Shown here piece by piece: positions 7,080 through 13,698 of a DNA stretch of 64,000 nucleotides. Every line of letters begins with the position of its first letter. Position 1 is the stretch's first letter. A program made the translations under genes and the position numbers. Origin of the DNA: Achromobacter seleniivolatilans (GTDB taxonomy: Bacteria > Pseudomonadota > Gammaproteobacteria > Burkholderiales > Burkholderiaceae_B); NCBI RefSeq assembly GCF_030864005.1, contig NZ_CP132976.1, positions 1,302,001-1,366,000 on the forward strand, written 5' to 3'. The notes beneath the pieces are model-generated. The model did not search any database. It was not told the DNA's origin and saw only the letters and a program-made list of their open reading frames with translations.

Positions 7080-7123
7080 ATCGCAACATACGATTGGACG
7101 CTGGGCGCCCCTGCCGGTGCAAT
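7080..7123 (+). promoter_or_regulatory. Predicted LysR operator and promoter for the TRAP operon
   Basis: ATCGCAACATACGAT (7080-7094) is a LysR-type dyad with ATCG/CGAT ends. It runs directly into TTGGAC (7094-7099, -35-like), an 18-bp spacer and TGCAAT (7118-7123, -10-like). The same layout with the same spacing recurs at 13655-13698. The rest of the 463-bp gap 6922-7384 holds only the small ORF at 7171. Confidence 0.55.
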
Positions 7124-7170
7124 GGCGGCACATCAATAAATAGCGCCTGAATACACAGCGCGGGGGAAGT

Positions 7171-7308
7171 ATGAAAAGCCACCTGATCCATTTCTGGATG
7201 CAGGCGGTGCGCCATGTGCCGCGCCGCTTGCACTGCATCGCCAGTGCCTGGCCCGATGCGCCGCAACTCGCGGCCAATACCCCCGTTTTCGCTGCTACAC
7301 GTTCTTGA
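7171..7308 (+). CDS. Possible 45-aa leader or small protein upstream of dctP
   Basis: An ATG at 7171 follows the purine-rich GGGGGAAG at good ribosome-binding distance and opens 45 codons ending in TGA at 7308. The peptide (MKSHLIHFWMQ... ending FAATRS) is basic and has no recognised domain or membrane segment. It lies in the long leader between the predicted promoter at about 7120 and dctP at 7385. It could be a regulatory leader peptide, or chance, since GC-rich sequence produces such ORFs often. Confidence 0.28.
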   Translation: MKSHLIHFWMQAVRHVPRRLHCIASAWPDAPQLAANTPVFAATRS

Positions 7309-7384
7309 TTCTTACCCGCGCGCATCGTTGGGACAACGGGAACCCGCGCGCGGCAGACCATCCCGCAAGCCAGGAGTTTTGTCC

Positions 7385-8434
7385 ATGAAGAAGTCTTTTG
7401 TTTTCGCCGCGGCGCTTGCCGCCAGTCTTTCGGCTGGCGCTGTGCACGCGCAAGACCTGCCCAAGACCCACCTGAAAGTTGTCGGGGGCCTGAGCAACCT
7501 GACCGCCTATAACGACTACGAAAAACCATTCTGGACTAAGACCATTCCTGAACTGTCCAAAGGCCAGGTCACGGCGGATGTCAAAGGCTTCAATGAAATG
7601 GGCTTGAAGGGGCCCGAGTTGCTGCGATTGATGTCGCAAGGCGTGATCGAATTCGGTACCGCGACCCTGTCGTACTTCGCCAGCGACAACCCCATCAATG
7701 AAGCCATTGATCTGGCCGGTCTTGCGCCCGACGTGCAAACTGCTCGCGCCGTGACCAATGCGTTCGAACCCGTCTACGCCAAGCTGTACGGCGAAGGCAA
7801 CAACGTCAAGCTGTTGGGCATTTCCACCTATCCCGCGCAGGTGCTTTTCTGCAATGCCGAGATCAAGGGCCTGGCTGACTTGAAGGGCAAGAAAGTTCGT
7901 ACCAGCAGCCGCACGACGGCAGAATTCGTTGAGGCCCTGGGCGGCACCAGCGTCACCATGGCGTTTGGCGAAGTGGTGCCCGCGTTGCAGAACAAGGTGG
8001 TTGATTGCGCAATTACAGGTTCGCTGTCCGGCTACTCGGCCAAGTGGTACGAAGTGTCGACGCACCTGGTCGCGCTGCCGATCAATTGGAATCAACAGAT
8101 CCATGCCGTGAACCAGAAAGCGTGGGACAAGCTGGACCCTGCGGTCCGCACGTTCCTGCAAGCCAGCGTGAAGTCCCTGGTCGACAACATCTGGGACGCA
8201 GCGGCTCGTCAGACGCAAGAAGGTTATGACTGCAATACCGGCGCTGCCGCTTGCCCCTTCCCGGTCAAGGGCAAGATGCTGCTGGTGCAGCCTTCGGAAG
8301 CCGATCATGCCTTGCTGAAGAAGGTGACGCAGGAAGCCGTGCTGCCGAAGTGGGCCGCACGTTGCTCGGCACAGTGCGTGAAGGACTTCAACGCCACGAT
8401 CGGCAAGACGCTGGGCGTGACCGCAAGCAAGTAA
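7385..8434 (+). CDS. TRAP transporter solute-binding protein (DctP family)
   Basis: The 349-aa periplasmic receptor captures an organic acid for the TRAP permease that follows. A signal peptide ends AVHAQD at about residue 23. The family segment LADLKGKKVRTSSRTTAEF contains the arginine that usually binds the substrate carboxylate. The ATG at 7385 is chosen because it begins MKKSFVFAAALAAS, a proper signal peptide, after CAGGAG. There are four cysteines in the C-terminal third (CNTGAAAC and CSAQC), suggesting disulfides. A perfect 13-bp hairpin separates it from dctQ. The substrate is not determinable; the downstream amidase and DUF1445 protein hint at an amide or amino-acid derivative. Confidence 0.9.
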   Translation: MKKSFVFAAALAASLSAGAVHAQDLPKTHLKVVGGLSNLTAYNDYEKPFWTKTIPELSKGQVTADVKGFNEMGLKGPELLRLMSQGVIEFGTATLSYFASDNPINEAIDLAGLAPDVQTARAVTNAFEPVYAKLYGEGNNVKLLGISTYPAQVLFCNAEIKGLADLKGKKVRTSSRTTAEFVEALGGTSVTMAFGEVVPALQNKVVDCAITGSLSGYSAKWYEVSTHLVALPINWNQQIHAVNQKAWDKLDPAVRTFLQASVKSLVDNIWDAAARQTQEGYDCNTGAAACPFPVKGKMLLVQPSEADHALLKKVTQEAVLPKWAARCSAQCVKDFNATIGKTLGVTASK

Positions 8435-12619: not shown

Positions 12620-12720
12620 TCCGGCAGCGGGCGGGCGGGCAGGGCGCGCACGCGTGTGAATGCGCGTGCGCCTCTGCCTGCCGCTAAGATTGACGGCTAG
12701 ACACGCTGGATGACGGTGCG

Positions 12721-13632
12721 ATGATCGATTTACGCAATATCGAGACGTTTTTCTGGGTGGCCACCTTGGGCGGATTCCGCGCGGCCGCAGAAAAGCTGAA
12801 TGCCACCCAACCCGCCATTTCTCAACGTATCGCCTCGTTGGAATCAGACCTGGGCGTGCGTCTGTTTGATCGTGACGCGCGCGGTATCAAGCTGACCGGC
12901 AAGGGCCGAGAACTGTTGTCGCATGCCGAACGCATGTTGCAATTGCGGCGCGACATGCAAGAAGCCGCCGCCGCGCAAAGCGTGATGAGCGGTACGCTGC
13001 GCTTGGGCGTGTCCGAGACCATCGTCCACACCTGGTTGCCGACGTTGATGGAATATCTGCATGACGCCTATCCGGCGTTGATGGTCGAGATCCAGGTAGA
13101 CACGACCACCATGCTGAAGTCGCAGCTGGCTTCACGCCAGATTGATCTGGCGTTTTTGCTGGGCCCGATGGAAGAACCCCGGGTAGAAAACCTGTATCTG
13201 TGCAACTACCCGCTTAGCTGGGTCGCCAGCCCCAAGCTGAAAGTCGGCCGGCAGCCGATCAGCCTGAAACGGCTGGCCGAGTGGCCCGTCATTACCTATT
13301 CGTCCACCACCGACCCGCACCGCGCGGTGCGCCAGCTGCTGCTACAGGCGGGCGTGGAGTCGCCCCGCATGTATGGCAGTTCGGCGTTAAGCGTGATTGT
13401 GCGGATGGCGCAGGACGGCATAGGCACCGCGGTCATCGCGCCAGTCATCTTGCACAAGGAGCTGGAACGCGGAGAGCTGCGTATCCTGGAGGTCAAGGCG
13501 CCCGCTTTGCCGCCGCTGCACTACACCGCCTGCTGGATGCAGGGCCCGGATAGTCAGATTCCGCGAGTCGTGGCCGAAGCCGCGCAGCAAATTGCGCGTG
13601 AAGAGGCACTGCGCCATCCGGCAAAACCCTGA
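12721..13632 (+). CDS. LysR-family regulator, paralog B of the catabolic module
   Basis: This 303-aa regulator is a close paralog of the gene at 6016. Its start MIDLRNIETFFWVATLGGF and recognition region ATQPAISQRIASLESDLG are nearly the same. The two are also alike in the effector domain (RQIDLAFLLGP, YPLSWVASPKL, SPRMYGSSALSVIVRMAQDGIGTAVIAPV). It lies between the amidase and the DUF1445 gene, whose promoter 23 bp past its stop carries the shared operator. The pair probably arose by duplication within the module. Whether the two respond to the same or different effectors is unknown. Confidence 0.91.
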   Translation: MIDLRNIETFFWVATLGGFRAAAEKLNATQPAISQRIASLESDLGVRLFDRDARGIKLTGKGRELLSHAERMLQLRRDMQEAAAAQSVMSGTLRLGVSETIVHTWLPTLMEYLHDAYPALMVEIQVDTTTMLKSQLASRQIDLAFLLGPMEEPRVENLYLCNYPLSWVASPKLKVGRQPISLKRLAEWPVITYSSTTDPHRAVRQLLLQAGVESPRMYGSSALSVIVRMAQDGIGTAVIAPVILHKELERGELRILEVKAPALPPLHYTACWMQGPDSQIPRVVAEAAQQIAREEALRHPAKP

Positions 13633-13654
13633 TAAGGAATATTGATAGGGGTCT

Positions 13655-13698
13655 ATCGCAACATGTGATTAGACGCCCGCGCAGAGTTCCGGTGCAAT
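13655..13698 (+). promoter_or_regulatory. Predicted LysR operator and promoter for the DUF1445 gene
   Basis: ATCGCAACATGTGAT (13655-13669) leads into TTAGAC (13669-13674), an 18-bp spacer and TGCAAT (13693-13698). Order and spacing match the element at 7080-7123, and CCGG before the -10-like box is shared too. The start codon at 13734 is 36 bp downstream. Confidence 0.55.

Follow-up and report, generated by a model that had tools for sequence, protein, structure and literature searches.

Within a 64,000-nucleotide stretch of the Achromobacter seleniivolatilans genome (contig NZ_CP132976.1, positions 1,302,001 to 1,366,000; termed the window here, with coordinates counted from its first letter), two neighbouring operons on the plus strand each follow a gene for a LysR-type transcriptional regulator (LTTR), lysR1 or lysR2, and a composite operator-promoter element of the same design. 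We interpret this arrangement, with a probability of roughly 0.78, as two adjacent, self-sufficient LTTR-operator-operon units of one ancestral kind, in which LysR1 would act on promoter 1 and LysR2 on promoter 2. The ancestral unit would have consisted of a LysR gene, an operator and an operon of DUF1445, dctPQM, DUF2848 and amidase genes, whilst in the window LysR1 is predicted to control promoter 1 (dctPQM-DUF2848-amidase) and LysR2 promoter 2 (DUF1445-livKHMGF). Each regulator would most likely bind its distal site firmly and its proximal site, by the −35 box, in an effector-dependent manner, recruiting RNA polymerase in the usual way of LTTRs; we infer activation rather than repression as the outcome of binding. 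Some cross-binding, above all of LysR1 to operator 2, is likely because the DNA-binding domains are ∼80 % identical. The evidence lies in the operators themselves, their conservation, their subtype specificity, and the occurrence of the units both singly and in pairs.

Element 1 comprises ATCGCAACATACGAT (7080–7094), TTGGAC (7094–7099), 18 bp and TGCAAT (7118–7123), and element 2 comprises ATCGCAACATGTGAT (13655–13669), TTAGAC (13669–13674), 18 bp and TGCAAT (13693–13698); common to both are ATCGCAACATNNGATTRGAC, the 18 bp spacer and TGCAAT. These positions, −35 boxes, spacing and −10 boxes are exactly those given in a first-pass annotation of the same DNA, which had noticed the composite element at 7080–7123 and 13655–13698 but overlooked a distal dyad 23 bp upstream of each proximal one (centres 7064 and 7087 in operator 1, 13639 and 13662 in operator 2). 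The proximal dyads, ATCG-N7-CGAT in operator 1 and ATC-N9-GAT in operator 2, are both of the T-N11-A form that is a trait of LTTR operators; they represent putative activation sites, and each shares one base with the TTGGAC or TTAGAC of its promoter (promoter 1, 7094–7123; promoter 2, 13669–13698). The distal, putative recognition sites are CCCAAGAAATATTTATA (7056–7072), with a degenerate left arm, and GATAAGGAATATTGATA (13631–13647), again T-N11-A, which overlaps the lysR2 stop codon. They coincide with blocks conserved in 55 and 37 operators of two LysR clades (clades 1 and 2, respectively, described below), and in some relatives the distal site is a clear palindrome (CATAAA-N5-TTTATG in clade 1, L022; GATAAG-N5-CTTATC in clade 2, L004). 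From their sequence we take both elements to be LTTR operator-promoters, in which a distal site is followed by a proximal dyad that adjoins the −35 box and then by the −10 box. The two sites lie about two helical turns apart with the second at −35, which is the two-site plan of LTTR operators; in PMC12016517, on BhbR1 of Pigmentiphaga kullae, the distal site, that of recognition, is as a rule put at about −65 and the activation site over −35. A distal T-N11-A dyad and a site reaching the −35 box are thus shared with BhbR1, whose partner cluster is, unlike here, under a MarR-family protein and not a second LTTR. The 18 bp spacing, earlier described as exact, is the usual length but becomes 19 in some relatives (e.g. 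L062, L064 and L122), and the CCGG noted before the last box is not conserved in relatives.

When the window was scanned with the pattern ATCGCAACATNNGATTRGACGC, which was picked after sight of both sites, the only two matches with up to three mismatches were elements 1 and 2 (0.02 expected), and none of 100 shuffles had two. Across the whole genome, a slightly looser pattern recovered elements 1 and 2 exactly together with five further matches at three mismatches, against none for a reversed control; as additional targets these five (L033–L037) were rejected upon rescoring with the full matrix, the best reaching −32.2 at the match. A matrix that included the window's own two sites scored the elements at 81.5 and 70.7 and everything else in the window at −2 or below.

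For comparison with relatives we assembled 97 loci, comprising the window, 40 from 40 of 62 matching genomes, 40 of 41 named loci (a short Spirochaetales match was omitted) and 16 from the genus; removal of 15 with an identical LysR gene as duplicates left 82 loci holding 110 LysR genes. Far from being absent in all relatives, the element accompanies 109 of these genes, lying within 3 kb downstream with a lowest score of 26.9 (by a matrix excluding the locus tested), while the best score elsewhere in the 82 loci was 11.0 and the next −1.1. Mean information over clades 1 and 2 is 1.4–1.9 bits per column in the distal site, in the proximal site with the −35 box and in the −10 box, and 0.3–1.0 bits in the spacer and flanks, with lysR2 coding sequence accounting for the maximum there. 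With conservation across many genera and less conserved flanks, chance is no longer tenable as an explanation of the pair. The idea of a chance resemblance, or of a recent functionless copy of promoter DNA, could draw on there being just two exact copies in the genome, but in view of this conservation its probability is negligible, and a recent copy is further contradicted by operators 1 and 2 being separate subtypes.

The operator also keeps to its targets. In six loci examined in which LysR and operator are 1.3–2.0 kb apart it remains by the target, and in one genome from which dctPQM has been deleted (G156) an intact operator 1 now precedes DUF2848 and the amidase gene. As G156 has lost the TRAP (tripartite ATP-independent periplasmic) genes beside a kept ABC (ATP-binding cassette) transporter, an overlap in function between the two transporters is suggested. 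Nine genomes have only a clade-2 unit: four are without DUF2848, and in four a distant DUF2848-amidase pair is located elsewhere (46–48 % and 51–53 %), at which no operator was found (best −8.6). The ninth, G135, has a dctPQM-DUF2848-amidase module (DctP 73 %, DctM 87 %) without such a LysR gene, and there too no operator was detected (best −24.8); a GntR-like regulator gene, identified by eye, lies divergently upstream.

Several observations weigh against the two-unit interpretation. The distal site of operator 1 in the window lacks the left T of T-N11-A (there is a C at 7058), a promoter scan of the window reported neither promoter, with −35 and −10 boxes far from the sigma-70 consensus, and operator 1 of one genome of the Bordetella group discussed below (G203) is weak (score 27). 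The loci are related, so that counts over them are not independent, and one LysR gene of the 110 (L060) has neither an operator nor a target module beside it. In that genome (G092; L060 and L246), LysR1 stands alone, ∼257 kb from a remnant operon of dctM-DUF2848-amidase-DUF1445, and an operator was found neither at LysR1 nor at the remnant operon.

Both regulator genes, lysR1 (6016–6921, plus strand) and lysR2 (12721–13632, plus strand), encode LysR-type family members, with HTH_1 (PF00126) and LysR_substrate (PF03466) above cut-off, and the tree places them in two separate clades, 1 and 2, and members of either clade also occur in single units with one operator. The proteins are 67 % identical overall, 82 % over residues 1–65 and 58 % in their effector domains, and over 26 dual loci the DNA-binding domains average 81 % identity. 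The statement that they have almost the same recognition helix holds (TTQPAVSQR in LysR1, ATQPAISQR in LysR2). A faster divergence of the effector domains, as a sign of two effectors, was rejected: it is no greater than among clade-1 orthologs at equal overall distance (DNA-binding/effector identity for pairs at 60–70 % overall of 0.812/0.587 in 2047 clade-1/clade-2 pairs and 0.816/0.610 in 56 clade-1 pairs). Both coding sequences contain the same inverted repeat, GCCAGATTGATCTGGC (window 6431–6446 and 13134–13153), probably a matter of codon use in a conserved peptide. The sequence CATGATACGCT occurs upstream of lysR1 (window ∼5980–6000) and, elsewhere, of lysR2 (by eye, lysR1 8/12 and lysR2 5/12 single or Bordetella loci) and is perhaps the −10 region of the lysR genes themselves.

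Among the relatives, the clade-1 single layout is LysR1, operator, dctPQM-DUF2848-amidase-DUF1445, and the clade-2 single layout (n = 11) is LysR2, operator, DUF1445-liv. Thirteen distant relatives (L066–L078) mostly have one LysR gene, an operator and DUF1445-dctPQM-DUF2848-amidase, the exceptions being L078, without DUF1445, and L072 and L076, in which the amidase was not found. Two LysR genes were present in 28 of the 82 loci: 25 from Achromobacter, the window included, one from Bordetella genomosp. 13 and two from B. petrii. The B. petrii loci L140 and L143 are a different tandem, with an extra LysR-operator-DUF1445-dctP unit directly upstream of the LysR1 unit. Taking the genus as that of the records named Achromobacter (sp. 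HZ34 and A. aloeverae, both clade-2 singles, are classed outside it), LysR1 was found in 42 of 43 genomes and LysR2 additionally in 25, including that of the window; the only genome without LysR1, G177, is 57 % complete. Operator patterns derived from such loci followed suit: clade-1 matches were confined to the 42 genomes with LysR1, one apiece, and clade-2 matches to the 25 with LysR2, again one apiece, the remaining 18 having none. As judged from the tree and layouts, the pair is not a fresh local duplication, there being two clades that each also occur alone; an in-place duplication made for cross-control, as first proposed, is likewise not borne out, since each LysR-operator unit also exists alone and the operators are distinct clade-bound subtypes.

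Within the genus, the dual or single state requires a minimum of six changes on the LysR1 tree, which has weak branches; this suggests that around DUF1445 both lysR2 and the liv genes have been gained and lost over time. The DUF1445 protein of the window is 89–93 % identical to those of single-LysR1 loci in the genus; set against the 67 % between LysR1 and LysR2, this does not favour a DUF1445 gene duplicated along with the regulator. The tree alone is indecisive, a single clade of LysR2-associated DUF1445 not being rejected by a tree test (p 0.09). Inspection of single-LysR1 loci by eye revealed no operator relics between the amidase gene and DUF1445. L132 shows DUF1445 in tandem, which, given an N and a second copy of the amidase end, resembles an artefact of assembly.

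For the operator subtypes, matrices were trained on single-LysR loci only (28 of clade 1 and 11 of clade 2), and these assigned the operators of dual loci correctly in 27/27 and 26/26 cases (53/53), also by the distal or the proximal site alone; 17 operators outside both clades, whose scores fall on both sides, were left out. Within residues 1–65 of the regulators, three positions (18, 28 and 56) are fixed by type. Residue 28, which going by LTTR structures is at the start of the recognition helix, is T alongside a proximal AC dinucleotide in 55/55 clade-1 units, and A in 37/37 clade-2 units, alongside GT (33) or AT (4). In the 16 other LysR units residue 28 is always T, with AC in 12, AT in three and, at the mis-anchored L076 site, CT in one. 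That residue 28 specifies the proximal dinucleotide is suggestive only, because the association represents one change on the tree; the two together offer a testable specificity position. The clade-specific subtypes argue against operators that are simply interchangeable.

Cross-regulation, as raised in the first-pass annotation, finds support in one place and opposition in another: two sister genomes retain a clade-2 operator without LysR2, whilst operators keep to their own LysR clade in 53/53 cases. These genomes emerged from three lists over 268 family genomes compared by eye, namely matches to the clade-1 pattern (79), to LysR at E-values of 1e-100 or better (103) and to the clade-2 pattern (57); the patterns overlap, some distant sites matching both and several distant LysR genomes matching neither. 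In G201 and G203 (group g36, which has named members in Bordetella; LysR1 93 % identical between them), a clade-2-type operator precedes DUF1445, and the sole close LysR is LysR1 (65 % to LysR2), whose own unit is on a different contig; the next-best match to LysR2 is 39 % in G203 and 34–35 % in G201. Directly upstream of the operator is an htpG-like gene, identified by eye; in B. pseudohinzii (L043) and B. genomosp. 12 (L127) lysR2 lies between such a gene and the operator, and in B. hinzii (L042) the htpG-like gene is ∼5 kb away. Between G201 and G203 the operator differs at 5/44 sites, compared with 56/147 fourfold sites of the adjacent DUF1445 (Fisher p 0.0008), 6/18 in the spacer, 30/92 aligned bases in the left flank and 11/45 in the leader. 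In G205, a genome 73 % complete and absent from the LysR list, the clade-2 pattern was matched close to the end of a contig.

The simplest reading of these sister genomes would be one loss of lysR2 in their ancestor with the operator still used by LysR1, although two separate recent losses, or another regulator, are possible. It is thus plausible that LysR1 can read the operator of LysR2, because G201 and G203 keep a constrained operator with LysR1 as the only close homologue, and cross-recognition would then have one natural piece of evidence; strictly insulated units are a further possibility. A stronger claim, compatible with two self-sufficient units, is that each regulator acts on the two operators strongly enough to matter physiologically, so that transport and DUF1445 would both answer to either one. 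This we hold at a little short of even odds: the constrained operator of G201 and G203 and the similarity of the DNA-binding domains in dual loci speak for it, but the two genomes probably represent one event, retention of the operator could also be due to two independent recent losses or to a different regulator binding it, and part of the 44 bp is promoter, which would be kept in any case. The 53/53 fidelity of the operators and the split at residue 28 and the dinucleotide, without exception in either clade, also stand against it. Tentatively, and with less than an even chance of being right in full, the observations may be joined into one regulon with two diverging LTTR paralogs. LysR1 would serve operator 2 well enough for at least one lineage to manage without lysR2, the changes of residue 28 from T to A and of the proximal AC to GT would be separating the two in dual genomes, and DUF1445 would have been passed between regulators by mid-operon gain and loss of lysR2, in at least six changes in the genus on that weakly branched tree. 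With units that occur singly or in pairs, and with one regulator naturally lost while its operator was kept, the system presents a many-species case of regulator paralogs and their operators separating.

The genes of the first operon, all on the plus strand, are dctP, encoding the TRAP solute-binding protein (7385–8434, PF03480; its ATG 261 bp beyond promoter 1), dctQ (8527–9147, PF04290), dctM (9144–10427, PF06808), the DUF2848 gene (10495–11178, PF11010) and the amidase gene (11270–12619, PF01425 and NF005460 above cut-off). A cascade, in which LysR1-driven transcription from promoter 1 continues past the amidase gene into lysR2, with LysR1 thereby setting the level of LysR2 and LysR2 in turn driving promoter 2, is unlikely. 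The start of lysR2 lies 101 bp past the amidase stop codon on the same strand, and the gap between lysR2 and the point where the amidase match ends measures 104 bp in the window but only 51–55 bp in L107, L108, L110 and L119. Of 25 dual loci, however, 18 have a −10-like GCTAAGAT ahead of lysR2 (counted by eye), the gap in the window contains a strong hairpin without a U-run (12630–12690, z −3.7), and clade-2 units are also found without a TRAP operon in front. In some dual relatives the gap is too short for a hairpin of the size seen in the window.

The second operon begins with the DUF1445 gene of the D-glutamate cyclase family (13734–14540, plus strand; PF07286 and NF003969 above cut-off), its chosen ATG 35 bp beyond promoter 2, and continues with livKHMGF-like ABC transporter genes (14820–19374, plus strand), recognized as open reading frames, named by reading and found in the same order after DUF1445 in clade-2 loci. 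The start codons of dctP, dctQ and the DUF2848 and DUF1445 genes were picked by reading. One regulator activating whilst the other represses by competition for the same operators, the example offered in the first-pass annotation, is very improbable: similar DNA-binding domains and proximal sites would allow it, but nothing was found that points that way, and either LysR can be met by itself, accompanied by a single operator and a single operon.

As far as comparison of sequences allows, we regard the system as a conventional LTTR design that occurs, unusually, as a pair, with its closest counterpart in BenM/CatM of Acinetobacter baylyi, LTTR paralogs whose control of the ben and cat genes overlaps without being the same; according to PMC6628147, the CatM-activated level at PbenA is 18-fold below that of BenM, making cross-regulation possible but weak. 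Comparative-genomic precedents exist for CatR with CatM/BenM (PMC6449761). Shared with BenM/CatM are two LTTR paralogs, neighbouring functions, similar T-N11-A operators and further sites near the promoter. The target genes there are others, of an aromatic pathway, the operators here differ from ATAC-N7-GTAT, and each LysR gene here is upstream of, and codirectional with, its target. Among the literature matches listed for DUF1445/DUF2848, DctP6/DctP7, D-glutamate cyclase and 5-oxoproline, Achromobacter LysR and TRAP genes, BenM/CatM or LTTR sites (titles and abstract starts), we found no description of the module, and DUF2848 was absent from those for DUF1445/DUF2848. The arrangement ties these two poorly characterized families to one probably inducible uptake module.

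With regard to function, the best PDB matches of DctP were 2pfz, 4n4u and 2pfy, all distant (E-values of 3.5e-19 and 7.9e-16 for 2pfz and 2pfy), of which 2pfz and 2pfy are presumably DctP6 and DctP7 of Bordetella pertussis. PMC13274462 describes DctP6 and DctP7 as TRAP pyroglutamate receptors solved with pyroglutamate. The likeness to that system consists of these two structures being among the three best matches, albeit distantly, and of DUF1445 belonging to the D-glutamate cyclase family; a lactam or D-glutamate-like compound as the nutrient would be a weak guess. The DUF2848 protein of the window does not pass the FAA_hydrolase cut-off but a homologue (P0094) does, and DUF2848 may be related to fumarylacetoacetate hydrolases.

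Finally, a weaker site, ATCAAAATTTGTGATTGGAC or variants close to it, recurs upstream of ABC solute-binding genes of one kind, both in this genome and in 10 of 30 others. Despite its resemblance to the proximal site it is not accompanied by a distal one (by eye in the ten genomes, by score for L222), and was judged to belong to another regulator rather than to this system. In the present genome, ATCAAAATTTCTGATTGGAC is located upstream of an ABC solute-binding gene at G000:C1:6500414-6500435 on the minus strand, outside the window (L164, L222).

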